NCBI RefSeq assembly: GCF_000243255.1
Contig: NZ_CM001436.1
Location: 62,692 to 126,691 of the forward strand
Direction: 5' to 3'
Length of the DNA: 64,000 bases
Source: Methanoplanus limicola DSM 2279
Lineage (GTDB): Archaea; Halobacteriota; Methanomicrobia; Methanomicrobiales; Methanomicrobiaceae
Shown: in pieces, positions 1,954 through 39,145 of the stretch
How the letters are laid out: each line of letters opens with the position of its first letter
Position numbering within the stretch: the stretch's first letter is position 1
Notes under the pieces: generated by a model
The model's database searches: none
Told to the model about the DNA's origin: nothing
What the model saw: only the letters and a program-made list of their open reading frames with translations
Translations under genes and position numbers: made by a program

Positions 1954-2520
1954 TTATCTCTCAACTGAAGCAAGTGTAATCTCAAAAGTCAGATTTTTGC
2001 CTGCAAGCTTATGATTTGCATCAAGAATTATTTCATCCTCTGTAATATCGGCAATTGTTACAGGGTACTGCCTGCCGGAATTATCAGAGATATAAAACTG
2101 CTGCCCTACCTCAGGCTCCTCGCCTTCAGGGAAAGTTGATCGGTCTGCCGGAAAGAGAAGAGCTTCATCATACTCACCATATGCCACGTCGGGAGTGAGT
2201 GTTACTGTTTTAACTTCCCCGGCTTTCATGCCAGAGACTGCATCATCAAAACCCTTAATCATCCGGCCGGAGCCAAGGATGAAGACAAGAGGGTTTCCTT
2301 CCTTTGACTGGTCAAATATCTCCCCGTCATCAAGTGTCCCTTTATAATAAACAGACACCTTATCCCCTGCCTGTGCTGTCACCTGTGAATTCTTATCATC
2401 CGGACCAACTCCCTGTGAATTAACCCTCTGATCAGCACCTGTGCATCCGGATGCCAGCACACATGCAAAAACCAGCAGAAGAGCCGGAAGCAGATATAAC
2501 ATAAATTTTCTCTCGGTCAT
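1954..2520 (-). CDS. FKBP-type peptidyl-prolyl isomerase, lipoprotein
   Basis: A 188-aa paralogue of the neighbouring cytoplasmic FKBP. The N-terminus (MTERKFMLYLLPALLLVFACVLASGC) is a signal peptide ending in a lipobox (ASGC), so the mature protein is probably lipid-anchored on the outer face of the membrane. The core has GDKVSVYYKGTLDDGEIFDQ, an AGEVKTVTLTPDVAYGEYDE segment and the closing DANHKLAGKNLTFEITL, with an insert-in-flap domain. It would assist folding of exported proteins. The start has an agga Shine-Dalgarno-like stretch close by. The two FKBP genes look like a duplication whose products work on opposite sides of the membrane. Confidence 0.88.
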   Translation of the reverse strand: MTERKFMLYLLPALLLVFACVLASGCTGADQRVNSQGVGPDDKNSQVTAQAGDKVSVYYKGTLDDGEIFDQSKEGNPLVFILGSGRMIKGFDDAVSGMKAGEVKTVTLTPDVAYGEYDEALLFPADRSTFPEGEEPEVGQQFYISDNSGRQYPVTIADITEDEIILDANHKLAGKNLTFEITLASVER

Positions 2521-2732
2521 AATTATCCTGATATTAATATCAACCCAGAGACCTGATTAATCAAACGGTTTGTCAATTAACCACGCCCTGCTAACGCGGA
2601 GATGGTGTCTGATTAAAATATGAATAAAAAAACAGTGCCATAAAAAAGGGGGCCATAAAATGAATGAAAACTGAACAGCAGGCAATCCTCAGCCTGGAGA
2701 AATGCTGCAACAGAATAGATATACCGGAGGAT

Positions 2733-3866
2733 TCAGGCATCAAATCCTGCATATGGATTTAACTGAATATCATTAGAAAGCCCGCGAAATGAAACTGCTG
2801 CAAGTGCCCCGATAATACCCCTGCCGCCATACAGGGATATACTGTTATCCTTCGCAACATTCCGGGCATAAACCTCATCCAGAATTTCTCTTCTTGAGAG
2901 CCGGCCAAAATCCCTCAGTTCATCGCTGATCTCAAAGCCGCATTTGAAAGCAATACCCCAGTCCTCAGAGAGGGACTCCTCCTCAACAAAACGGAGAGCA
3001 AGCTCACGTACGTGGGAAAAGACAACCGGATCGACCGCAAGCTCAATATAACTGCATGAATTCCCGGTAGTGCAGATCGAAGGATCAGGTTTAAGCATGA
3101 CCACCCGGTGAACTATAGGAATAACTCCTTTCACCTTCCGGAGATACTGAAGCAGGCCAAGTGCAAGGGCAAATGTTGCACCTCCATCCTTACTGTCGGT
3201 ATCGTCAATACCAATTATCAGATGGCTGAGAGCCTTTGTTGTCACTTCACCTTCAACAATACTGCTGCCCTCTATCTTTCTGGTCCTAACATCGACAACG
3301 CCCTCTGCAAGGCTCATCATATCTGTCAGCGAATAAGCCGGGCCGCCTATACACCGGATAGTCTGGACAATAAACTCACCGCAGGTGCCTGCCCTCCGGA
3401 GATCTGCAATACCTACGGCCGGATCAGGGAAAAGACCAATTCTCTTCATATCACCCTTATGACCTGCAACAGATGCATACTCAACAAGCAAAGTTCCCTC
3501 CCGTGTCGCCCTTGAAATCCCGCCGCCGGCAAGAGAATGATGATGCCGGCAGAATGCAGCACAACCACCGCTCCTGCATTCATGAAATATCAGAACATTA
3601 TTCCCGTCAACGGTTGTGAAAATACTCTTGCATGCCGACTGCAGCATAGTTCCGGTGGTCACATACCTCGCCGGAACTCTGCCCCTCTTCTCTTCTTTTA
3701 AAATAATACACTTTTCACTGGCAAGACGGTTTACCCAGTCCTGTACAGTACTTCTCGGAATACCTGAAGTTCCGGCAATGTCATTAACTGTAAAAAATCC
3801 TTTTTCGAGGGTAAAATCCCTCATAAATCCAAGAAGCTCACGCCTCTTCTCAAGCACACCGGCCAT
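2733..3866 (-). CDS. HTH domain fused to a TiaS/Mmp11-like GIDDTD protein
   Basis: A 377-aa protein with two parts. Residues about 1-65 look like a winged helix (FTVNDIAGTSGIPRSTVQDWVNRL). Residues from about 70 include a Cys/His-rich stretch (HECRSGGCAAFCRHHH) and then IIGIDDTDSKDGGAT, the nucleotide-binding signature shared by the tRNA(Ile2) agmatidine synthetase TiaS and methanogenesis marker protein 11. It lacks the zinc ribbon and OB domain of full TiaS, so TiaS function is unlikely; a Mmp11-type role, with unknown reaction, is the better guess. Its start overlaps the end of the homoserine dehydrogenase gene by 17 bases, so it belongs to that operon. The fusion to an HTH is the odd point. 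Confidence 0.6.
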   Translation of the reverse strand: MAGVLEKRRELLGFMRDFTLEKGFFTVNDIAGTSGIPRSTVQDWVNRLASEKCIILKEEKRGRVPARYVTTGTMLQSACKSIFTTVDGNNVLIFHECRSGGCAAFCRHHHSLAGGGISRATREGTLLVEYASVAGHKGDMKRIGLFPDPAVGIADLRRAGTCGEFIVQTIRCIGGPAYSLTDMMSLAEGVVDVRTRKIEGSSIVEGEVTTKALSHLIIGIDDTDSKDGGATFALALGLLQYLRKVKGVIPIVHRVVMLKPDPSICTTGNSCSYIELAVDPVVFSHVRELALRFVEEESLSEDWGIAFKCGFEISDELRDFGRLSRREILDEVYARNVAKDNSISLYGGRGIIGALAAVSFRGLSNDIQLNPYAGFDA

Positions 3867-4836: not shown

Positions 4837-5337
4837 TTAAAAGTCCTCCAGAGGCTCTATTATCAGAATATCCTTCTTCTCCGCGATATTACGCAGAATC
4901 TCAAGGGCACGCCCTATATCCTCCAGACTGTCGGATTTTATTGTCATCTTTGCAGACGTAGGCTCATTTATAGCCGGCATTACCATTGAAAGAGCACCTA
5001 CCTCTGCAAATCCGGTATCATCAATTTTCTGCACAGTATCACTGAGATCTGTATGCAGAAGATGACCGATAAGAATGAAGGACTTTCTGATAAGATGCTG
5101 TTCTTCTCCGACCCTGAGAATATTTACATTACTCTTCTTCATGAGATCAATCATCTCATCAAGCTTATTTTCCGGAAGTTCAAGCTGAATCCGGACATCA
5201 AGGGTTCCGTTTTCAGAAAGGGGATCACGTTCGTGTATCACTGATTTTATATTCCCGCCAACTTCCGATATTGGTTTTAAGGCTGCAAGGAGCTGCCCCG
5301 GCAGATCCCTGACCTCAAGCTTCATTGAAACCTGCAA
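4837..5337 (-). CDS. ACT-domain amino-acid-binding regulatory protein
   Basis: A 166-aa protein starting MQVSMKLEVRDLPGQLLAALKPISEVGGNI, a typical ACT fold opening, with a second possible ACT-like half after residue 85 (RKSFILIGHLL...). ACT domains bind amino acids and control enzymes allosterically. It lies directly before hom, with no bases between its stop and the hom ATG, so the two are co-transcribed and probably translationally coupled. The likely job is sensing threonine or a related amino acid to control homoserine dehydrogenase; this is inference from position. No DNA-binding domain is visible. Confidence 0.8.
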   Translation of the reverse strand: MQVSMKLEVRDLPGQLLAALKPISEVGGNIKSVIHERDPLSENGTLDVRIQLELPENKLDEMIDLMKKSNVNILRVGEEQHLIRKSFILIGHLLHTDLSDTVQKIDDTGFAEVGALSMVMPAINEPTSAKMTIKSDSLEDIGRALEILRNIAEKKDILIIEPLEDF

Positions 5338-5528
5338 TTTTCCTCCAACCTCCTGTTAAAAGAGTTGATCTGCAAAACTGATAAGTCTTTTACAAACAGA
5401 TTACGGAATATGGTTTATCAAAAATCAAAATCGTCCTGAACTAAGAACCCAGGAATAACTATATATACAAAAAAACAGATTAGTAGAATATCACTTATAA
5501 TCCGAAAATAATAATTAAGGAGGAAAAA

Positions 5529-5675
5529 ATGGCAAAACCAATAGAACTGGGATTAACACTCTCCGGTAGCGATGCCCGAAGATTCAATAAATATATGAGA
5601 CATCCTACTTATCCAAAAAAAGCAAGAGAAATGCTAAAAAATGCTGCAAAAAGAGCAGAATACAAAACAGATTAA
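5529..5675 (+). CDS. Small antitoxin-like protein preceding GNAT
   Basis: A 48-aa reading frame (MAKPIELGLTLSGSDARRFN... ending AEYKTD) preceded by a strong aaggagg Shine-Dalgarno at 5517-5523. It is rich in Arg and Lys in its C-terminal half and its stop is directly followed by the ATG of the GNAT gene. Short proteins with this LGLTL.G.DA.RF..Y opening are known to me as partners of TacT-like acetyltransferases in archaea. It is therefore likely the antitoxin that binds and neutralises the downstream toxin and may repress the pair. No clear HTH or ribbon-helix-helix is seen. Confidence 0.7.
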   Translation: MAKPIELGLTLSGSDARRFNKYMRHPTYPKKAREMLKNAAKRAEYKTD

Positions 5676-6203
5676 ATGGAACTCCCGGATAATATTCCCA
5701 AAGAACAGTTAATATTTTCATTTTTATCAAAAAAGGACAAATTATCAGGGTTTGATTGTTCTGAATCTGAATTAAACGAATTTTTGGTACAGGATGCACT
5801 GGACAATCAGATTAGAAAATTTTCAGTTACGCGCCTTTTATACTGGAATAACAATATCACAGGTTATTTCACACTGGTTAATGACTGTATCAGCATTGAT
5901 AACCTGGAAAATGTAGATCGTCAGGATGATATTATCTATAGAAAATATCCTGCATTGAAAATTGCACGACTTGCAACAGATAAAAATTTTGAAAATAAGG
6001 GGATTGGAACCCATATGGTTGATGAAATATTTTATATTGCATTCAAAATATCAAACAGTGTGGGTTGCAGGATATTAACTGTAGATTCAAAACAGAATTC
6101 AGTTACCTTTTACCAAAAATTCGGTTTTAAAAGGGCTACAAATTCACGTAGAGAGACAATTCCCATGTATCTTGACTTCCATTCCGCATTAAAACAGGAA
6201 TAA
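5676..6203 (+). CDS. GNAT acetyltransferase, TacT-like toxin
   Basis: A 175-aa GNAT-family protein. It has the FDCSESELNEFLVQDAL opening, the ALKIARLATDKNFENKGIG acetyl-CoA-binding segment with the R/Q-x-x-G-x-G/A type loop, and the VTFYQKFGF closing motif; these are characteristic of TacT/AtaT-type toxins that acetylate charged aminoacyl-tRNA and stop translation. The ATG directly follows the stop of the 48-aa gene, so the two form one operon. Base composition is more AT-rich than the neighbours by eye, which fits a mobile toxin-antitoxin cassette. The substrate is inferred from the family. Confidence 0.8.
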   Translation: MELPDNIPKEQLIFSFLSKKDKLSGFDCSESELNEFLVQDALDNQIRKFSVTRLLYWNNNITGYFTLVNDCISIDNLENVDRQDDIIYRKYPALKIARLATDKNFENKGIGTHMVDEIFYIAFKISNSVGCRILTVDSKQNSVTFYQKFGFKRATNSRRETIPMYLDFHSALKQE

Positions 6204-6230
6204 AGAATGATCTGACAACAGAAAATTCAG

Positions 6231-7049
6231 TCAGACACTCTTCAGTTTGCTGTCAACTTTTGCAAAGAAATTTTTGCCAAGATTTATGAACAGTGCAGGA
6301 TCTTCGGACTTTTCGATGCTGACAACATTGCCGTTGTAAAGTTCCATTATCAGCTCACCGTCAATGACAAGATCAGCCGGCTTCGGACTGTCAAGTTCAA
6401 CACCAACCCTTCGTTCGATACTGATAAGATGAGGCCTTGAGGAGAGATGATACGGTGCAAGAGGCACTACCAGAAAACATTCGATTAACGGATCGACAAT
6501 AGGCCCTCCGGCACTCATGGCGTAACCTGTAGAACCTGTCGGTGTGCTTATCAGAACACCATCTGCCCTGAACCTCTCAGCCGGAACATGATCCACATTG
6601 ATTGTAAACTCCAGAATTTTTGCAGGCCGTGATGTAACAATGACAGCTTCATTAAGGGCATCGCCGACATTATAACCGTCAACCTTTACTGAAAGCCTCA
6701 TCCTCTCTTCAATGGTAAAATTTCCGGATTCGATCTTTTCAAACTGCTCCCTTGCCTCATCAGGTTCAAGTTCAGAGAGAAATCCAACATGACCCTTGTT
6801 GATGCAGAGAAGCGGGATCTGCCTGCCAATCTCCCTGACGCAGCGCAATACAGAACCATCACCTCCAATAACGACAATAATATCTGTATCAATTGCAGAA
6901 AACGGGACTCCGCCCTCTATCGAGAGCGCATCCGCCGTCTTCCGCTCAAATATCACCTGATGTCCTCTTCCGGATATAAAAGCACCAAATTCCCTTGCGT
7001 ACTCCAGAACATCCTTATTATCCGGACGCGATACAATTCCAAATCTCAT
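6231..7049 (-). CDS. nadK: NAD kinase
   Basis: A 272-aa cytoplasmic enzyme that phosphorylates NAD to NADP. It contains the diagnostic VVIGGDGSVLRCVRE (GGDGT-type) motif, the NKGHVGFLSELEP segment and the TPTGSTGYAMSAGGPIVDP motif. The ATG at 7049 is preferred over a TTG six bases upstream because homology begins at MRFGIV. It lies 27 bases after an inositol-phosphatase/FBPase gene in the same orientation; in some methanogens these two activities are fused in one protein, so the pairing is meaningful. NADP made here is the substrate of the F420:NADP oxidoreductase at 43 kb. Confidence 0.93.
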   Translation of the reverse strand: MRFGIVSRPDNKDVLEYAREFGAFISGRGHQVIFERKTADALSIEGGVPFSAIDTDIIVVIGGDGSVLRCVREIGRQIPLLCINKGHVGFLSELEPDEAREQFEKIESGNFTIEERMRLSVKVDGYNVGDALNEAVIVTSRPAKILEFTINVDHVPAERFRADGVLISTPTGSTGYAMSAGGPIVDPLIECFLVVPLAPYHLSSRPHLISIERRVGVELDSPKPADLVIDGELIMELYNGNVVSIEKSEDPALFINLGKNFFAKVDSKLKSV

Positions 7050-8320: not shown

Positions 8321-9190
8321 ATGCAATACTTTCTAAAACCTTTTTTTGCAGATGCTGAATGCGCTTACGAAGACGCTGATTACATAATATTCGGTGTCCC
8401 TTACGACGGAACGACATCATACCTTTCAGGAACCAGACTCGGCCCTAAGGCAATAAGGGAGGCTTCCTGGAATTTCGAGACATATCTCCCGGATTTTGAT
8501 CTGGACATCTCAGAGATAGCCATATGCGACATGGGAGACCTTGAAATATCAACCGTTCCTGAGATGGTCATATGCGAAGTTGAATCTGCAGTGCGTGATT
8601 TCACGGAAGAGAACAAATTTCCGGTAATCCTCGGGGGGGAACATTCACTCACCATTGGCGCACTGAATGCCATAAGGCCCGAATGCTATGTCGTATGCGA
8701 TGCCCACCTGGATTTAAGGGAGGAATTCGGCAGCACACCTTTCAACCACGCCTGTGTCACCAGAAGGGCATTCGATATGGGCGCGGAGATATTTATCATC
8801 GGTGCACGAAGCGGACCTGAAGAAGAATTCCGGCTTGCAGGGGAGAATGAAAGAATTCATCTTTACACTCCGGACGATGTCAGAAGAAGAGGCATCTCCG
8901 GAATATGTGATGAGATCATCAGTATAATCTCCGGAAGAAAAACCTATCTCTCTATTGACGCGGATGTCATAGACTGTTGCCTGACTCCGGGACTGGGGAC
9001 TCCCGAACCCTTTGGGCTTGATACCTTTGACATAAGGGACCTTGTCAGAAAGATCGGCCCGTATGCATCTGCATTTGATTACGTAGAGGTATGCCCGACA
9101 GATTCAGGTCAGACTGCTACGGTTGCTGCAAAAATTATCCGTGAATTTATTGCAGTTCACAGCATATCTGCAAAAGAAGTACAGAACTGA
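8321..9190 (+). CDS. speB: Agmatinase (ureohydrolase)
   Basis: A 289-aa arginase/agmatinase family enzyme. The binuclear Mn ligands are visible as GGEHS, DAHLD and SIDADVID, all in family order, with FNHACVTRR between. Agmatinase makes putrescine and urea from agmatine; in archaea the polyamine supply also feeds the (deoxy)hypusine modification of aIF5A. It starts five bases after aIF5A, so the operon pairs the factor with the pathway for its modification. A GGAC-AAA-GTCC hairpin followed by seven T lies about 95 bases downstream. Confidence 0.92.
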   Translation: MQYFLKPFFADAECAYEDADYIIFGVPYDGTTSYLSGTRLGPKAIREASWNFETYLPDFDLDISEIAICDMGDLEISTVPEMVICEVESAVRDFTEENKFPVILGGEHSLTIGALNAIRPECYVVCDAHLDLREEFGSTPFNHACVTRRAFDMGAEIFIIGARSGPEEEFRLAGENERIHLYTPDDVRRRGISGICDEIISIISGRKTYLSIDADVIDCCLTPGLGTPEPFGLDTFDIRDLVRKIGPYASAFDYVEVCPTDSGQTATVAAKIIREFIAVHSISAKEVQN

Positions 9191-9285
9191 GAGAAATAAA
9201 CCGGAACTCAAGAGAAAGTCCTGAAAAAACAGAATATTAATTTCAATAAATTTCAGTAATGTTCAGACCGGAATTTATACCACCC

Positions 9286-9303
9286 GGACAAAGTCCTTTT
9301 TTT
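9286..9303 (+). terminator. Hairpin plus T-run after speB
   Basis: ggac-aaa-gtcc is followed directly by ttttttt. A short stem with a U-run fits intrinsic termination of the aIF5A-speB transcript. The gene on the other side is convergent and ends at 9344, so a terminator is expected here. Confidence 0.5.
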
Positions 9304-9343
9304 ATTCCAGAGATGTCCGGGATTATCCTTAATCTGACAAAAA

Positions 9344-10111
9344 TCAGACATAACTGGACGGGATTTTAATCTCAATCTTATAGGACTGAAGCATATTGGG
9401 ATGAATTATGAAGTAATAATTGCCGAATCCCTCATAAAATTCATGTCGCCAGATGAACTCCTCAAATTCACCCCTCGCAATTGTTGCCCCGGATTCATCC
9501 ACTCCCTCAAGAAGTGCTTCCTCCGGGAAAGGAGCCTCAGTCATTGTATTAAGGACATATTCAACGCCGTTTGGCTTGTCGGCATTCATCACCTGAATAT
9601 TTACCGAAGGTGTGAGGTAAAACTGCTGACCGGCCTCTGCACCCTCACCACCAACTGATCCAAAGCCCTCCAGCGTCACATCCATAATCCAGTAAGGGTA
9701 CGGAATATTGAAGATCTGGGTTGTAGCATCCCACTGCCCGTTGATCTCGGCATATGTGACATATGTCTCATTTATCTCCTCATCGGCAGGCACATTGAAA
9801 CCAAAGTCTTTGAGCTGAGACTCCCACTGCATATTATATGTGGAGGGATCGACAAACTGCACCTCTTTAGGAGTAAGACCGTCCCATTCGGGAGTAGCTG
9901 CCGCTGTAGGTTTTACTGAAAGGGAAGGGGAATAAGGATTATCCATAGCGCCCTGCGGAACAGGGATCTGCTGTGGAACGGTAATTGTATCATTTGAAGT
10001 TTCAGGCAGGGGAATAATCGGATCTCCGTTTATCAGCGGCTTTACAACAAGAGCCAGAATAAGAACTATGGCAATTGCACCGATAAAAAATATTAAATCC
10101 TGCCTTTCCAT
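9344..10111 (-). CDS. Membrane-anchored extracytoplasmic protein, function unknown
   Basis: A 255-aa protein that I do not recognise. Residues 7-26 (IFFIGAIAIVLILALVVKPL) form one membrane helix; it is followed by a Pro/Ser/Thr-rich linker and a soluble domain with many aromatic and acidic residues, so the bulk probably lies outside the cell. No cysteine is present in the soluble part and no catalytic motif is evident. A TATA-like ataaataaaa stretch lies about 25 bases before the ATG, consistent with a leaderless single-gene transcript. Confidence 0.7.
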   Translation of the reverse strand: MERQDLIFFIGAIAIVLILALVVKPLINGDPIIPLPETSNDTITVPQQIPVPQGAMDNPYSPSLSVKPTAAATPEWDGLTPKEVQFVDPSTYNMQWESQLKDFGFNVPADEEINETYVTYAEINGQWDATTQIFNIPYPYWIMDVTLEGFGSVGGEGAEAGQQFYLTPSVNIQVMNADKPNGVEYVLNTMTEAPFPEEALLEGVDESGATIARGEFEEFIWRHEFYEGFGNYYFIIHPNMLQSYKIEIKIPSSYV

Positions 10112-10237
10112 GGAAACAATATGGTTCTGTTTTTATTTATAAGTAATTTCAGCGACAAAAAAAGTCGGTTTTTTATAATCACAACTGATTAATTCCGGAT
10201 GACCATTTACAGATGACCACCGGCACATTCAGAAACT

Positions 10238-11266
10238 TTAACCCCTAAGCTCCTCCCAGAATCTGAGAAGGCCGAAACAACCTGAGAGCATCATATCGCC
10301 ATACGGTGCCGCCTGATATGCATCCGGCAGCAGCTTAAATCTGTTAGGGCCAGTAACTGCAATATTATCTGTAAGAAGAGGCTTTCTTACCTCTGCACCG
10401 TGTCCGTTGTCATCAAATACTTCCTTCCCGGAAATTGTACCTCTCTTAAGCTCCTCAATATATTTAAGCAGACCGGCCGTTGAGAGCCTCCCCGTATGGT
10501 GCTCAAAAATACCATAAATTTCCGTGCCTTTAATCGTAAAAACAAGAGTATGCCCGTTTCCGGCATTGACAAGCACAAGGCCGGATTCAGACATCTTCTT
10601 CACGACAGGATCGCATAACGCACCCATAATTGCCGCAGGTCCGGTATCTGTTACAAGACTTCCCGGCGCCTGCTTCAGGACAGACCGCATCCTTGTCATT
10701 GAAGGATGCGGAGGATCTGACGTAAGGGAATTGAGCACCCAGTCATTCTCATCCAGAAGTTCTCTGAAGAGATTCATCCTGTATATCCTGTTGCTCATAT
10801 CCGGAGAATACCCGTGATCCTGAACTGCAAAGGCAAAATTTTTGGGATAATCAAGGGAGAAGGAGTCAAAGACACCTTTAATCTCCCTCTCCATAAAATC
10901 CCTGGTCTCAATAACAACTGCATCAGAAGGTGCACAGGACGTAATTTTAATTCCCTTCTCGCGAACTGAATCAGCATTGTCCCTTATGGTAAGTGCGGCC
11001 TCCTCAGTTGCTGTCACCCCAGTACCGGAATTAACTGCGTGCATAATCGCAGCAACACAGTCCCCGCCACCCATAGTAAAACCTTTCAGATGAATAGGCC
11101 GGCCGGTTCTCACCGCAGCCATGATCTCCTTTCCGACAATGACATTCGGGGAAGGGAGAACAAATTTCACAGAATTTTCAACGGATTTTTCCGGATCAAA
11201 AAAAAGAATATCCTGAGTTCCCTTCCCTACATCTATAGAGAGAATATCCCTGTCGATATCAAACAT
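10238..11266 (-). CDS. DUF1786 protein, ASKHA-like ATPase fold
   Basis: A 342-aa protein of the DUF1786 family, in databases often labelled 'pyruvate formate-lyase activating enzyme related'. It opens with DILSIDVGKGTQDILFFD and has LVLVNAGNGHTLVFTIKG near residue 235, which resemble the two phosphate-binding motifs of the actin/Hsp70/sugar-kinase ATPase fold; this is my reading, not a stated annotation. The start at 11266 is preferred over the longer frame (11320) because the family begins at MFDIDRD and this places it four bases after the nrdD stop. Position after nrdD suggests a supporting role for that enzyme. Confidence 0.7.
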   Translation of the reverse strand: MFDIDRDILSIDVGKGTQDILFFDPEKSVENSVKFVLPSPNVIVGKEIMAAVRTGRPIHLKGFTMGGGDCVAAIMHAVNSGTGVTATEEAALTIRDNADSVREKGIKITSCAPSDAVVIETRDFMEREIKGVFDSFSLDYPKNFAFAVQDHGYSPDMSNRIYRMNLFRELLDENDWVLNSLTSDPPHPSMTRMRSVLKQAPGSLVTDTGPAAIMGALCDPVVKKMSESGLVLVNAGNGHTLVFTIKGTEIYGIFEHHTGRLSTAGLLKYIEELKRGTISGKEVFDDNGHGAEVRKPLLTDNIAVTGPNRFKLLPDAYQAAPYGDMMLSGCFGLLRFWEELRG

Positions 11267-31830: not shown

Positions 31831-31890
31831 AAAATCAAACCAAATCAAACCAAATCAAACCAAATCAAACCAAATCAAACCAAATCAAAC
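31831..31890. repeat. 10-bp tandem repeat, six copies
   Basis: The unit caaatcaaac is repeated five times from 31841 to 31890, preceded by a copy with one changed base (aaaatcaaac). It lies 58 bases after glnK. No spacers, no reading frame. It may be simple-sequence slippage. Confidence 0.9.
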
Positions 31891-31947: not shown

Positions 31948-32072
31948 ATAATTCAGAACCTACAATATAATTCAGAACCTACAATATAATTCAGAACCAA
32001 CAATATAATTCGAACCAACAATATAATTCAGAACCAACAATATAATTCAGAACCAACAATATAATTCAGAAT
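31948..32072. repeat. 19-bp tandem repeat, six copies plus a partial
   Basis: The unit ataattcagaacc[t/a]acaat occurs six times; the first two copies have t and the later ones a at the variable position, and the fourth lacks one base. The final copy is cut after 12 bases. The array lies in the 738-base gap between glnK and the HTH-FHA gene; the remainder of that gap (32073-32511) shows only AT-rich promoter-like DNA. Confidence 0.9.
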
Positions 32073-32511
32073 GATTAATAATAAAGTGCAATAATAAATT
32101 ACAGACGTCAGATCAGACTTACAGGATAGGATAATGCCGGTAATTCTTCACAGCGGCCAATATTATTCACTATGATTTTTCAGATAACCTGTCCGGTTAA
32201 ACCAGCATCACCATATAACCTGGAAGTTAAACCCGAGTATTTACAGATACCATCCGGGTAGATATTCTGCCACAATTATTTTATTATGAACCGGAGAATT
32301 ATTGAGATCAGTATGGTAAACCATATCCGGCCGCGTAATCGGATCTGGAAAATATGATCAGGAAGCATCCGGCTTCAGAAGTTATCAGCAAAATGTGCAG
32401 AATCAAATTATAATGAATAAAGCCGGCCGGACCGAATTTACAATAAAAATCAATTGTTCAGCCAACAGTTATAGAGAATAAATTATACACCATTACAGAC
32501 AGGGAGTGAAA

Positions 32512-33294
32512 ATGTCAGCAGGAAAAAACCAAGAGACCGTCTATCTTGAAAATGACGATGAATTTTTGGAAGAGCTTTCAGATTATCTCGATGTACTTTC
32601 AAACCCCACAAGGCTTAAAATTCTTAAAGCCATTGAAAATGTCCCGAAAGACATACGCGAAATATCATATGAAGTGGGTGTATCATATGAAAATACAAAA
32701 AAGCATATTCAGAAACTGAATACAGCCGGAGTTATCAGGAAGGAGACAGGTATCAGCAGCAGGTCATCAAAGGGCATCCATCCGGTATGGAAATACTCAC
32801 TTATGCCCGGAGGGCTGGATTCAGTATTCAGTAACCTCCAGATATTTTCATGCTTCAGCCTTACACCTGGAACTGAGCATATCAGTGAGAGGGTAAACTC
32901 ACTTAAAGAGGAGATTCTTGCAGGAATAAGGCCTGACAATCCTGCCGTAATAATAATAGGAGGACCTGAGGACGGGAGAATCTGGCCGGTTGAAGAAACC
33001 AGGACAAGGATCGGACGTGCAGACAATGATTCGACATACGCAGCAGAGAAAGGAGATATAATCGTATCAGAGTTCCATTCTGCTGTATCACGGATCTCAA
33101 AACCCCACTGCCGTATAATACGTGAGAATGACAGATGGTTCATCGAGGATATAAAAAGCACAGGCGGGACATATATTAATGGAGAGGAAGCAGAAAAAGA
33201 AATAAGGACGGAGATCTATGACGGCAGCACCATTGAACTCTCAAGGAGTACAAAAGGCGCAAAGATGATCTTTTGTGCAGGCAAAAAGATGTGA
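32512..33294 (+). CDS. Winged-helix transcription regulator fused to an FHA domain
   Basis: A 260-aa protein. Residues about 20-95 are an ArsR-like winged helix (LDVLSNPTRLKILKAIE, EISYEVGVSYENTKKHIQKL). Residues about 145-255 form an FHA domain: RIGRADND, ISKPHCRII (the S-x-x-H phosphothreonine contact) and STGGTYINGEE. FHA domains bind phosphothreonine peptides, so the DNA-binding part is probably controlled by a Ser/Thr kinase; one is encoded by the next gene on the same strand. The ATG at 32512 has an agggag Shine-Dalgarno; an upstream GTG (32506) is less likely. No other copy is in the window. Confidence 0.85.
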   Translation: MSAGKNQETVYLENDDEFLEELSDYLDVLSNPTRLKILKAIENVPKDIREISYEVGVSYENTKKHIQKLNTAGVIRKETGISSRSSKGIHPVWKYSLMPGGLDSVFSNLQIFSCFSLTPGTEHISERVNSLKEEILAGIRPDNPAVIIIGGPEDGRIWPVEETRTRIGRADNDSTYAAEKGDIIVSEFHSAVSRISKPHCRIIRENDRWFIEDIKSTGGTYINGEEAEKEIRTEIYDGSTIELSRSTKGAKMIFCAGKKM

Positions 33295-33390
33295 TAATGC
33301 CATAAACATCACTGGTAATCCCTCAAAAAACATTATCCTCAGACAATATAACATATCATTTATTATCCATGTGCAGGCAGAATCCGGCAC

Positions 33391-33583
33391 ATGAAAAACT
33401 CCTATGAAACAGTGCACTGTTTCATTCATCATCTGTGAACCGGCTGGTTCATGAAGAACTCCTATGAAACAATACACTGTTCCGTTCATCATCTGTGAAC
33501 CGGCTGGTTCATGAAGAACTCCTAATGAAACAATACACTGTTTCATTCATCACCTGTGAACCCGCAGGCTCACGAGTGACTTT
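33391..33583 (+). repeat. 60-bp hairpin-bearing repeat, three tandem copies
   Basis: Units at 33391-33450, 33451-33510 and 33511-33571 share atgaa.aactcctatgaaac, a palindromic middle and ctgtgaacc..ggttc. In unit 1 the stretch 33405-33424 is a perfect 20-bp palindrome. A second hairpin (tgaacc-N4-ggttca) lies in each of the first two units. The third copy continues into gtgacttt (to 33583) and has an inverted relative at 44951-45014. The array lies between the HTH-FHA and kinase genes. The rest of this 487-base gap (33584-33781) is AT-rich with no other signal seen. Confidence 0.9.
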
Positions 33584-33781
33584 CTGTACCCTGAAAAGGC
33601 AGGTAAGGGCAGCATTTATTGCAGCAACAAATATTTCAAAATAATCTTAAATATATCAATACACAATAAATAATAACAGACTCTCCGGCGGAAAACTCAT
33701 CAGACAAAATTCTGAAGGAGCCATAATATTCGGTATAACCCCTGATTACAGAAATCTGCAGGAAATCTGATAAAAGGAAAC

Positions 33782-35521
33782 GTGATGGATCCGGATAAAA
33801 ATAAAAAAAGCAATAAAATAATTTTAATCTTACTGGTAATATCATTAGTTCTACTGTTAAATCCGGTCTGTGCAGAAAAAAATGAATCCTCTCCATTAAT
33901 TGCAGATCATAGTCCTGATAATGATCAGTTAAATATTTCACTATACCTGGAGCAGTCCGGGGGCAATGAGGCAATAAACTCTTATAAAGACAGGATAAAC
34001 GAAATTTTAGATTCTGATAACAGGTTAGAGACAGATTATGCAAAAGAAGAGAATCAGTCCGTAAACCTGAGTGCCACAGATACAGCAGAAGAATATACTG
34101 ACAGATACACAGTCAGATTCTTCTCAAACATCTACTTTATTCTGATCCTCTTTATATCGGCATGGATTGTATTTCTTGCCCACATAGCCGGAAAAGAATC
34201 ATCAGAGAGATATATTTACAACAAAAAGCCATTTCTCACTGCATTTTTGATACCCGCATATACGATTCAGGGACTTTACCTCTTCTTCATCACCATTACA
34301 ATGACCTCAGGGCTGGGACTTGAAGAGATCGGAGGTACAGGTCCGCTTGAAAACTTCTTCCTGTCATGGATCTACCTCTCACTCTCACTGGGATATATTT
34401 ACATGGCATATTCAATAATAGAGAAGAAAAACGGAATATTTGTCTGGTACCTGACAATGATTCTGACATTAATTCTCCTGTCCGCAACACTCATAATAAT
34501 TTACCCGGATTCAGAATTACAGATCTATACAACGGTTGCAGCCGGAATTACCTCATTATTGATTAACACCTCATACTTTGCAATGATAAAGAGATACCCG
34601 TCATTCAACCCTAATGATACGATAATCACAGGTTTTAGTGATAAAAAATATTCTGAATATTTCAGTGATAAAAATCTGATTAAAGATCAGAATACCAAAT
34701 TATCATCATTCCCGGATATTTTAAAAGAGCGGTATATGCAGGATGAATTTGTCGGAAGAGGGGGAATGGCAAAGGTCTTTAAAGTAAAAAGGAGAAAAGA
34801 CGGAAGAACTGTAGCCCTGAAAATTCCGATATATCTCGATGAGAAAACCGGCATTAATCTTTTCAGGGAGATGAATATATGGAAAGATCTTGACCACAAA
34901 AATATAATCCATGTCTTCGATCTGAACATACTTCCGGTGCCATTTGTGGAGATAGAGTATTTCAAAGATTCACTTGCCGGTATGAAAAAACCGGCTGATG
35001 AAAAAGAATCTGCCGCCATAATATCAGGAATTGCGGAAGGTCTCTCCTATGCTCATAAAAGGGGAATAGTTCACAGGGATATAAAACCCCAGAATATACT
35101 GCTTACCAGAGATAATATTCCAAAGATTGCCGACTGGGGGCTTGGAAAACATATACTGGAGAATACTGAAACAGGCACAATGGCATTCTCACTCCATTAT
35201 GCAGCACCTGAACAGGTATTGCCAAAGAAGTTTGGCAGATGTGACAGAAGAACTGACATATTCCAGTTATCTGCACTGTACTATGAGCTAATCACCGGAC
35301 ATCTGCCGTTCTCCGGTGACGGAATAGGAGAGTTTACCGCAGCAATAATAGCTGAAGTGCCAAAACCTCCTTCATATTACAATCCGGAATTAAAAAAGTA
35401 CGATGCCTTCATCCTGAAAGGTCTCGAAAAATATCCGGATAACAGGTACAGTTCTGCTGAGGAGTTTATATCTTCCCTGAAAGTCATCGCAGAAAGCAGA
35501 GAAGAAATGACAGAAGATTAA
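33782..35521 (+). CDS. Membrane Ser/Thr protein kinase (Hanks type)
   Basis: A 579-aa protein. Residues 12-31 are a signal-like hydrophobic segment; residues 32-112 would lie outside; five further helices follow (about 113-137, 151-176, 192-213, 219-241, 248-268). The cytoplasmic kinase domain (about 315-570) has the glycine loop GRGGMA (325-330), Lys347, HRDIKPQN (431-438), DWG (451-453, in place of DFG) and APEQ (475-478). All catalytic residues are present, so it should be active. It follows the HTH-FHA gene on the same strand, whose FHA domain is a likely reader of its phosphothreonines. Start GTG 33782 or ATG 33785. Confidence 0.88.
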   Translation: MMDPDKNKKSNKIILILLVISLVLLLNPVCAEKNESSPLIADHSPDNDQLNISLYLEQSGGNEAINSYKDRINEILDSDNRLETDYAKEENQSVNLSATDTAEEYTDRYTVRFFSNIYFILILFISAWIVFLAHIAGKESSERYIYNKKPFLTAFLIPAYTIQGLYLFFITITMTSGLGLEEIGGTGPLENFFLSWIYLSLSLGYIYMAYSIIEKKNGIFVWYLTMILTLILLSATLIIIYPDSELQIYTTVAAGITSLLINTSYFAMIKRYPSFNPNDTIITGFSDKKYSEYFSDKNLIKDQNTKLSSFPDILKERYMQDEFVGRGGMAKVFKVKRRKDGRTVALKIPIYLDEKTGINLFREMNIWKDLDHKNIIHVFDLNILPVPFVEIEYFKDSLAGMKKPADEKESAAIISGIAEGLSYAHKRGIVHRDIKPQNILLTRDNIPKIADWGLGKHILENTETGTMAFSLHYAAPEQVLPKKFGRCDRRTDIFQLSALYYELITGHLPFSGDGIGEFTAAIIAEVPKPPSYYNPELKKYDAFILKGLEKYPDNRYSSAEEFISSLKVIAESREEMTED

Positions 35522-38164: not shown

Positions 38165-38926
38165 TCAGAAATAATCTGAACTCACCCCGGCTGTTCTGAG
38201 CACGACCTTATCTGATCTGTCGGCTGACAAAACGCCGTAGTCCATCCTAAATTCAACAAGATGGCCTCCAAACTTCCGGTCCTCACTTATGAAATGGAGA
38301 TGAAAGCCTTCTGAGGTGAGGTCTGCCATATAAGAAGGATGGAAATACCCTACAGCAGTACCCTTAACACCGGTTCTTTCAAAAAATGCCTGATTATCTG
38401 TGGAAAGAACCTCTTCAAGAGGCCTGTAAGGCTCATCCTGCCCCTTCACGCTCCTCGTCTTAACCTCGCTGAAATAACCGTCAAGCCTGACAGCATATAT
38501 CACTGAACGATTGCTGTCAGATTCAAACCTGTCTGTAAGCAGTTCTTTCATGCCGGAATAATTTTTTGGACTTTCAAGAGCAAAGGCAATATCAGGACTG
38601 AATTCCTTAACCTCGGCAAAAGAGGCGGTCTGGCTTCCCGAAACCTCACCTACTGTTCCGTTGCAGAATACCTGATAGTATTCACCATCGACTGCAACCA
38701 TCTCACCATTAAGGCGGTCAAAAGTACCAAGTCCTGTATCTCCATGCAGCATAACATCAGAGTAGGCAAATGTACCGTTATAATCACCTTTCAGCAGTTT
38801 ATCAAGCGGAGAAAAGAGATAAACAGAGTCATCGTTATTTACAGAAGGATCGTACGAAAGGGCAGCAAAAATGAAAAATATCAGAGCAACCGCAAAAACA
38901 AACCCAAGAATATAATTTTTATTCAT
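38165..38926 (-). CDS. Acetolactate decarboxylase with N-terminal membrane anchor
   Basis: A 253-aa protein. Residues 4-24 (NYILGFVFAVALIFFIFAAL) form a membrane helix or signal peptide; the rest matches acetolactate decarboxylase (AlsD/BudA): LHGDTGLGTFDRLNGEMVAVDGEYYQ, VIYAVRLDGYFSEVKTRSV, GTAVGYFHPSY and GFHLHFISEDRKFGGHLVEF with the HxH...H zinc ligands. The enzyme turns acetolactate into acetoin and CO2. Export of the catalytic domain is a recurring feature of this family, but its use in a methanogen is unclear. No acetolactate synthase gene is nearby. ATG 38926 or 38938. Confidence 0.88.
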   Translation of the reverse strand: MNKNYILGFVFAVALIFFIFAALSYDPSVNNDDSVYLFSPLDKLLKGDYNGTFAYSDVMLHGDTGLGTFDRLNGEMVAVDGEYYQVFCNGTVGEVSGSQTASFAEVKEFSPDIAFALESPKNYSGMKELLTDRFESDSNRSVIYAVRLDGYFSEVKTRSVKGQDEPYRPLEEVLSTDNQAFFERTGVKGTAVGYFHPSYMADLTSEGFHLHFISEDRKFGGHLVEFRMDYGVLSADRSDKVVLRTAGVSSDYF

Positions 38927-39145
38927 TACCAAAACCATCCGGACATTGTGAAAATTATCTGAGATAATGCTGTAACAGATATTGTAATCAGAGGTATTAC
39001 AGTTACAGGTTCTGTCCGGAGATTAAATATCCGATTCGTTGCAGGCAGCAGGTGTAAGCCGCCCAAAAGGAGAACATAAGAATCCTTAACCTGCTTAAAT
39101 TCTGAAAAAAAAGTCTTTCAGAGAATATCCATAAACTGATACCCA

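Follow-up and report, generated by a model that had tools for sequence, protein, structure and literature searches.

How could a methanogen carry a signal from its membrane to a promoter by serine/threonine phosphorylation? Archaeal signaling from Ser/Thr kinases to transcription has been described in detail mainly for the Sulfolobales, and two adjacent genes of Methanoplanus limicola DSM 2279 raise the question for a methanogen. They lie in a 64,000-nucleotide stretch of contig NZ_CM001436.1 (positions 62,692 to 126,691; hereafter the window, whose own numbering is used unless stated otherwise). The upstream gene codes for a transcription regulator of 260 amino acids (aa) that combines a helix-turn-helix (HTH) with an FHA domain (32512..33294, forward strand), and the downstream one for a membrane Ser/Thr protein kinase of 578 aa (33785..35521, forward strand). 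We propose that they form a one-step membrane-to-promoter phosphosignaling module and give the full mechanism set out below a probability of roughly 60%. The pair is best read as an archaeal counterpart of PknH/EmbR, with the regulator probably acting as an activator of an envelope regulon.

The regulator, its kinase and their co-inheritance

The best start of the regulator is the ATG at 32512, the open reading frame (ORF) itself beginning with a GTG at 32506 and ending with the stop at 33294. Pfam recognizes an ArsR-type winged HTH (HTH_5; 32602..32742, forward strand; 2.8e-7, 30.7 bits against a curated cut-off of 22) and an FHA domain (33004..33240, forward strand; 4.8e-13, 49.8 bits against 20.7), and ArsR and SmtB proteins are among the sequence matches in the PDB. 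An alignment of 71 regulators has 19 invariant columns. Y59, N61, K64 and H65 of the recognition-helix region (SYENTKKH) are invariant in it, as are G168, R169, R194, H199, D213, S216 and N223 of the FHA domain, while position 196 is S or T in 69 of the 71; the conserved pocket and fold residues comprise R169, S/T196, H199 and N223. The FHA signature positions (G-R, S-x-x-H, S-T-G-G-T and N) are present. The AlphaFold2 model has a mean predicted local distance difference test score (pLDDT) of 80, with residues 1-13 below 50, as a disordered tail; its predicted template modeling score of 0.59, like the same value for the kinase, means that the folded domains are modeled with confidence and their relative placement is not.

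The kinase (ORF from the GTG at 33782, ATG at 33785, stop at 35521) consists of a signal-peptide-like helix, an outside segment, five transmembrane (TM) helices (34076..34579, forward strand) and a cytoplasmic Hanks-type kinase domain (34733..35452, forward strand; Pfam Pkinase 2.2e-39). The membrane region is drawn from the hydropathy of the paired kinases and from the AlphaFold2 model, in which an N-terminal helix (residues 4-26) and then helices at 99-141, 150-176, 188-213, 219-239 and 245-266 precede the kinase domain. The closest solved structure in sequence is PknB. The full Hanks-type catalytic set (Lys, Glu, HRD, Asn, DxG, APE, Arg) is present: Lys347, Glu363, His431, Asp433, Lys435, Asn438, Asp451, Asp492 and Arg555 are invariant in 66 kinases, as is the P-E-Q of APEQ (476-478), and the Asp451 motif reads DWG, not DFG. 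The first-pass annotation of this DNA, made from the letters alone, had placed an HTH-FHA gene next to a five-helix membrane kinase with all catalytic residues; both parts of that description stand, both domains of the regulator lying far above the Pfam thresholds and the pair occurring twice in the genome. The 70 paired kinases that we extracted from related loci are 364-956 aa long, and by hydropathy nearly all have an N-terminal hydrophobic segment, then one or several (about five) TM helices and then the kinase domain. Among the 66 kinases, the ectodomain is a NosD/right-handed beta-helix in 21 and PEGA in 4, the others being short or without an assigned family; none of the 66 has the PASTA repeats of PASTA-type PknB/StkP kinases.

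The only FHA domains in the 3.2-Mb, single-contig genome of M. limicola are those of two HTH-FHA proteins, the regulator of the window and a second one 42% identical to it; both genes are followed on the same strand by a related kinase. A first sample of 60 related genomes yielded 73 HTH-FHA genes, spread over 44 of them. In 71 cases the gene is followed within 2.1 kb, on the same strand, by the start of a strong Pkinase match; the remaining two are at contig ends. The first-pass annotation had named conservation of the pair in related genomes as its check, and the outcome is in its favor: 44 of the 60 genomes carry both the FHA protein and the kinase, every genome with the FHA protein also has a strong kinase, and FHA matches within the order Methanomicrobiales are located in HTH-FHA genes. 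A second sample, partly overlapping with the first, comprises 81 HTH-FHA genes from named public genomes. Seventy of these are paired, and 9 of the remaining 11 lie at contig or sequence ends, where in most cases the beginning of a protein with a signal-peptide-like N-terminus can still be read downstream. The last two both belong to L164, one with a cut-off kinase and the other, a true exception, with a PP2C gene instead. This locus holds two HTH-FHA genes (5001-6566 and 8936-10780): behind one lies a PP2C gene but no kinase gene, and the other has a kinase and an HTH that looks degenerate.

The gap between the two genes is at most 60 bp in 47 of 70 loci, 16 of which have touching or overlapping genes, and a gene for a PP2C-family phosphatase lies just upstream of the HTH-FHA gene in 20 loci. 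In the window, the gap is 487 bp and contains a dispersed repeat, so co-transcription is not assured here. A mirror-tree comparison of regulator and kinase domain gave r=0.645, with permutations reaching at most 0.20; swapping partners within genomes, which keeps the species history, gave a mean r of 0.32, and none of 2000 such swaps reached the observed value, so each regulator appears to have kept its own kinase.

Judged from these genomes, the HTH-FHA and kinase genes are conserved as a unit in the order Methanomicrobiales. Loci were named in Methanoculleus, Methanofollis, Methanoregula, Methanolinea, Methanospirillaceae, Methanocalculus and Methanomicrobium, and within the order one family (f6) and a few genera are without HTH-FHA. 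Across 393 genomes of the phylum, a search at E<=1e-12 gave no HTH-FHA protein outside the order. FHA domains elsewhere in the phylum are rare (10 genomes), and the inspected ones have other architectures; one HTH-FHA contig is labeled Thermoplasmata, perhaps through a binning error. The pairs sit at several unrelated genomic positions, across several families. Related genomes share the arrangement amt-glnK / pair / diphthamide synthase, and a link to nitrogen control by way of the upstream Amt-GlnK was considered and rejected: since other copies of the pair are located elsewhere, we read the adjacency as ancestral synteny.

A candidate threonine switch and a candidate operator

Thr9 of the regulator (codon 32536..32538, forward strand) is a candidate phosphoacceptor and FHA ligand. 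It is threonine in 71 of 71 regulators and serine in none; position +1 holds I, L or V in 69 of the 71, and position +3 I, L, M or V in 51. FHA domains bind phosphothreonine, not phosphoserine, and read the +3 position. As the sole invariant residue of an otherwise variable, disordered N-terminal tail, and one that is never serine, Thr9 therefore fits an FHA ligand. A conserved threonine in such a tail is also the feature of the tail-switch FHA proteins GarA and OdhI, and a search of PDB folds with the regulator model returned GarA, EmbR and the FHA domain of DgcB together with the phosphorylated N-terminal peptide of the same protein among its top matches. In DgcB, OdhI and GarA, a conserved threonine with a preference at +3 is phosphorylated and the protein's own FHA domain binds the phosphorylated tail (PMC6733907). 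These proteins share with the regulator the disordered tail, the conserved threonine and the hydrophobic +3 residue, but they control enzymes or a GGDEF domain, whereas here a DNA-binding domain would be controlled, self-binding being suggested by analogy. Thr9 is probably a substrate of the kinase, and its phosphorylated form a ligand of the FHA domain in the same subunit or in the other one. Thr9 is a better-supported candidate for the FHA ligand than the phosphothreonines of the kinase, which are also possible ligands.

Upstream of the regulator gene lies a predicted operator, TATAACCTGGAAGTTAAA (32214..32231, unstranded), with the consensus TTKAACC-N4-GGTTMAA. It was derived by pooling the upstream regions of 126 operons, which gave the inverted repeat AACC-N4-GGTT, refined to T-n-K-AACY-N4-RGTT-M-n-A; six upstream regions of window-type orthologs aligned by themselves had no obvious conserved block, and the operator emerged only with all operons pooled. 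The copy of the window has a position weight matrix (PWM) score of 18.7 and is the sole match of at least 15 in the window, and an operator is comparably placed in L042 and in the closest relative (L037). Scores of at least 14 occur in 39 of 125 upstream regions against none in shuffles. A matrix trained on one family picked out 26 of the 86 regions upstream of operons from other families, and the reverse training 11 of 39, the reversed matrix giving 0 in both cases; 732 kb of loci outside the training regions hold 29 strong sites, where 0.67 are expected. Counted by the exact pattern, the 44 pair-carrying genomes together have 81 sites and the 16 others 3, as against 3 and 0 for the reversed-pattern control. 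A looser degenerate pattern has five perfect matches in the 3.2-Mb genome, equal to its control (5); two of these are at the two HTH-FHA loci, at 94905-94922 of the contig, which is the site of the window, and at 3177738-3177755.

The operator is often followed by a TATA box, TTTATA, which starts at 26 bp in 11 of 20 occurrences and at every other position at most twice, and in many promoters a second and weaker repeat, half or whole, follows about two helical turns after the operator. Archaeal sites upstream of the TFB-recognition element (BRE) and TATA box go with activation, and sites downstream of them with repression (PMC4158304). The HTH-FHA protein itself would be the one to bind TTKAACC-N4-GGTTMAA.

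Target genes, called from six-frame ORFs with no gene finder, form a putative regulon. Besides the HTH-FHA or PP2C gene, the operator precedes an operon for a CARDB/NEW-type secreted protein, LolD and a MacB exporter (six loci with the first gene), whose last genes, where a locus was read to its full length, are those for HTH-FHA and kinase. It also stands ahead of a HEAT-repeat lipoprotein gene divergent from the PP2C gene (five loci), a small lipoprotein gene after the kinase (five loci), ABC-2 transporter ATPase genes (three genomes: L047, L250 and L260) and other genes for signal-peptide proteins. In the PP2C-type (class B) loci, an operator and TATA directly after the kinase open a stretch of about 1 kb without long ORFs (L036 ~2300-3760; L038 9131-10300; L040 8600-9800; L046 8271-9400). 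This stretch is 76% identical between the present genome and its closest relative, contains in the relatives very small ORFs, among them one for a hydrophobic peptide of 28-30 aa, and an Rfam scan of the class B loci matched no family. The common theme of the targets, export and the cell surface, favors an envelope-sensing role.

Proposed mechanism and its alternatives

The functional connection that the first-pass annotation drew between kinase, FHA domain and DNA binding gains backing from the invariant Thr9, a candidate phosphothreonine, and from the shared operator. From the genes, domains, pairing, co-inheritance, conserved residues and the operator motif with its positions, we infer the following course of events. 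With its outside segment and membrane helices, the kinase would detect a cue at the cell surface or envelope, autophosphorylate, and then phosphorylate the partner HTH-FHA protein, most likely on Thr9. Phospho-Thr9 would dock into the FHA domain of its own or of the partner subunit, and this contact between tail and FHA domain could set the dimer such that its two winged helices grip TTKAACC-N4-GGTTMAA upstream of BRE/TATA. Binding would probably activate transcription of the module's own operon and of nearby or scattered envelope genes, namely those for LolD/MacB-type and ABC-2 exporters, small lipoproteins, and secreted and membrane peptides. Where an operon also encodes a PP2C phosphatase, this enzyme would return the switch to its starting state.

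Several observations weigh against this proposal. The third canonical position of the FHA pocket, the N of S-x-N-G-T, is mostly glycine (64 of 71); FHA proteins can bind the kinase instead of their own tail; and in EmbR the phosphorylation is not in an N-terminal tail. The agreement of the mirror trees is also expected from plain co-inheritance of adjacent genes. An operator lies within 400 bp of only about a third of the HTH-FHA operons, and many operons with short kinases (Methanoculleus type) are without it. Exact-pattern sites are about 10 times commoner in pair-carrying genomes, with a Mann-Whitney P=1.7e-5 that overstates independence, as genomes within a family are related. A dispersed repeat of the genus, described below, carries the operator core, so some operator matches may be decoys or coincidence, and some of the six-frame ORFs are doubtful, so some target genes may be wrong. 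The TATA box at +26 is not clear in the operator copy of the window, and a site upstream of TATA hints at activation and is no proof of it.

The most direct challenge to the tail switch is that the FHA domain docks instead on autophosphorylated threonines of the kinase, in the activation loop or juxtamembrane region, which is what the first-pass annotation put forward and what holds for EmbR/PknH. The regulator would then be brought to the membrane or the active site and phosphorylated elsewhere, with Thr9 kept for, say, DNA contact or dimer packing. Phosphorylation of EmbR by PknH is abolished by FHA mutations (PMC4601284), and the kinase here is of the RD type with a conserved activation segment; yet the singular conservation of Thr9 in its tail, always as threonine, speaks for a ligand there, and we regard docking, with the separate role that it leaves to Thr9, as unlikely. 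The sign of regulation could also be the opposite, with the HTH-FHA protein a repressor or autorepressor that phosphorylation frees from DNA. Most archaeal DNA-binding regulators repress (PMC4158304), ArnA does so as well (PMC10470591), and there are sites at the module's own promoter. However, the sites lie upstream of TATA at a fixed distance, not over TATA or the start, which is the archaeal activator layout (PMC4158304) and leaves repression a doubtful reading.

It is distinctly improbable that the operator belongs to another regulator of these operons while the HTH-FHA protein binds elsewhere. Some HTH-FHA operons have no site and three sites occur in genomes without the family, but the site counts of 81 and 3 track the family, the sites cluster at HTH-FHA loci of several classes, and an inverted repeat of such length suits an ArsR-type dimer. 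The 487 bp and the repeat between the genes of the window might even suggest that the two genes are adjacent by chance, or through the synteny of one lineage, and function separately; against the pairing of 71 of 73 genes over several families and unrelated positions, the overlapping genes and the paralog-matched trees, this idea is hardly credible.

Known systems and neighboring elements

The nearest known parallel is EmbR of Mycobacterium tuberculosis, in which, as here, a winged-helix DNA-binding domain is combined with a C-terminal FHA domain; a membrane Ser/Thr kinase controls EmbR, as we propose for the regulator. PknH is a mycobacterial kinase with one TM helix, whereas the kinases here have one or five and varied ectodomains. 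EmbR has an OmpR-type/SARP DNA-binding domain and a BTA (TPR-like) domain, in contrast to the ArsR-type HTH and short linker here: the Pfam scan of the regulator found the ArsR HTH and FHA only, without a BTA domain or the SARP architecture, and in the PDB sequence search EmbR aligns to the HTH-FHA family over the FHA part only. By analogy, then, the HTH-FHA system would work like EmbR/PknH without being a member of it. In that system, phosphorylation of EmbR promotes promoter binding, and the targets are cell-envelope genes (PMC4601284).

Within the archaea, ArnA/ArnB with ArnC, ArnD and ePK1 in Sulfolobales and ST0829 of S. tokodaii likewise involve FHA proteins in the control of transcription by Ser/Thr kinases (PMC6509490, PMC10470591). 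ArnA has an N-terminal Zn-ribbon with its FHA domain and works with the vWA protein ArnB, while the N-terminal domain of our regulator is HTH_5, and the Sulfolobales systems have neither an HTH-FHA fusion nor an operon with a multi-TM sensor kinase. The first-pass annotation knew of no archaeal pathway of this make-up, which goes too far as regards the principle, known from bacterial EmbR/PknH and from archaeal ArnA and ST0829, both of them promoter-binding FHA proteins controlled by kinases. It has been stated that among archaea FHA proteins are conserved only in Crenarchaeota (PMC10470591), a statement that the FHA proteins of the present genomes contradict. Other Halobacteriota (L267, L268, L269 and L272) have clusters of Zn-ribbon-FHA, vWA, kinase-FHA and PP2C-FHA genes, ArnA/ArnB-like or TerY-P-like; they too unite FHA, kinase and PP2C in an archaeal locus, but have no HTH-FHA, are made of soluble parts and lie outside Methanomicrobiales.

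In layout, the pair resembles two-component systems, with a membrane sensor kinase, an adjacent dedicated DNA-binding partner and paralogous pairs per genome; here, however, a Hanks-type Ser/Thr kinase and FHA domain stand in place of His kinase and receiver, and PP2C in some operons in place of a bifunctional kinase. We are evenly divided on the wider proposition that it is an archaeal Ser/Thr counterpart of two-component systems: paralogous pairs of sensor kinase and HTH-FHA protein (with PP2C in some), confined among the sampled genomes to Methanomicrobiales, with an N-terminal phosphothreonine-FHA switch, a common activation-placed operator and an envelope/export regulon that includes the ~1 kb small-peptide region. 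We found no description of an HTH-FHA/kinase system in the open-access literature on FHA in these genera, and the family appears undescribed in its lineage, make-up (ArsR-type winged HTH with FHA, a kinase of one or five TM helices and sometimes PP2C), operator and regulon. It would be a widespread system of euryarchaea whose sensor, switch, regulator and DNA site all lie within a few kilobases, which makes methanogen membrane-to-promoter signaling directly testable with purified parts, and it supplies a candidate phosphosite, operator and targets for many otherwise unannotated envelope genes.

The space between the two genes contains three 60-bp repeats (33390..33570, forward strand) with the palindrome ATGAAACAGTGCACTGTTTCAT and the operator-like core TGAACCGGCTGGTTCA at 33436 and 33496. 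They belong to a dispersed repeat of about 60-70 bp, in which ATGAAACAGTGCACTGTTTCAT is followed by a GAACC-N4-GGTTC stem and then a T run, and which is not specific to this locus, occurring at about 45 genomic places. Its second stem is the operator core and may be a decoy, a terminator-like element or a coincidence. The 22-bp palindrome between the genes was considered as an operator and rejected, being found at those ~45 places and at none in the second HTH-FHA locus. Tandem arrays lie between glnK and the HTH-FHA gene at 31832-31890 (a 10-bp unit, 5.9 copies) and 31948-32071 (a 19-bp unit, 6.6 copies). Away from the HTH-FHA loci, a second PP2C gene lies near a divergent kinase-like gene (G000:C1:500272-501765), and elsewhere in the window an alpha-acetolactate decarboxylase (38165-38938, reverse strand; Pfam 1.6e-61) carries an N-terminal signal-peptide-like segment.

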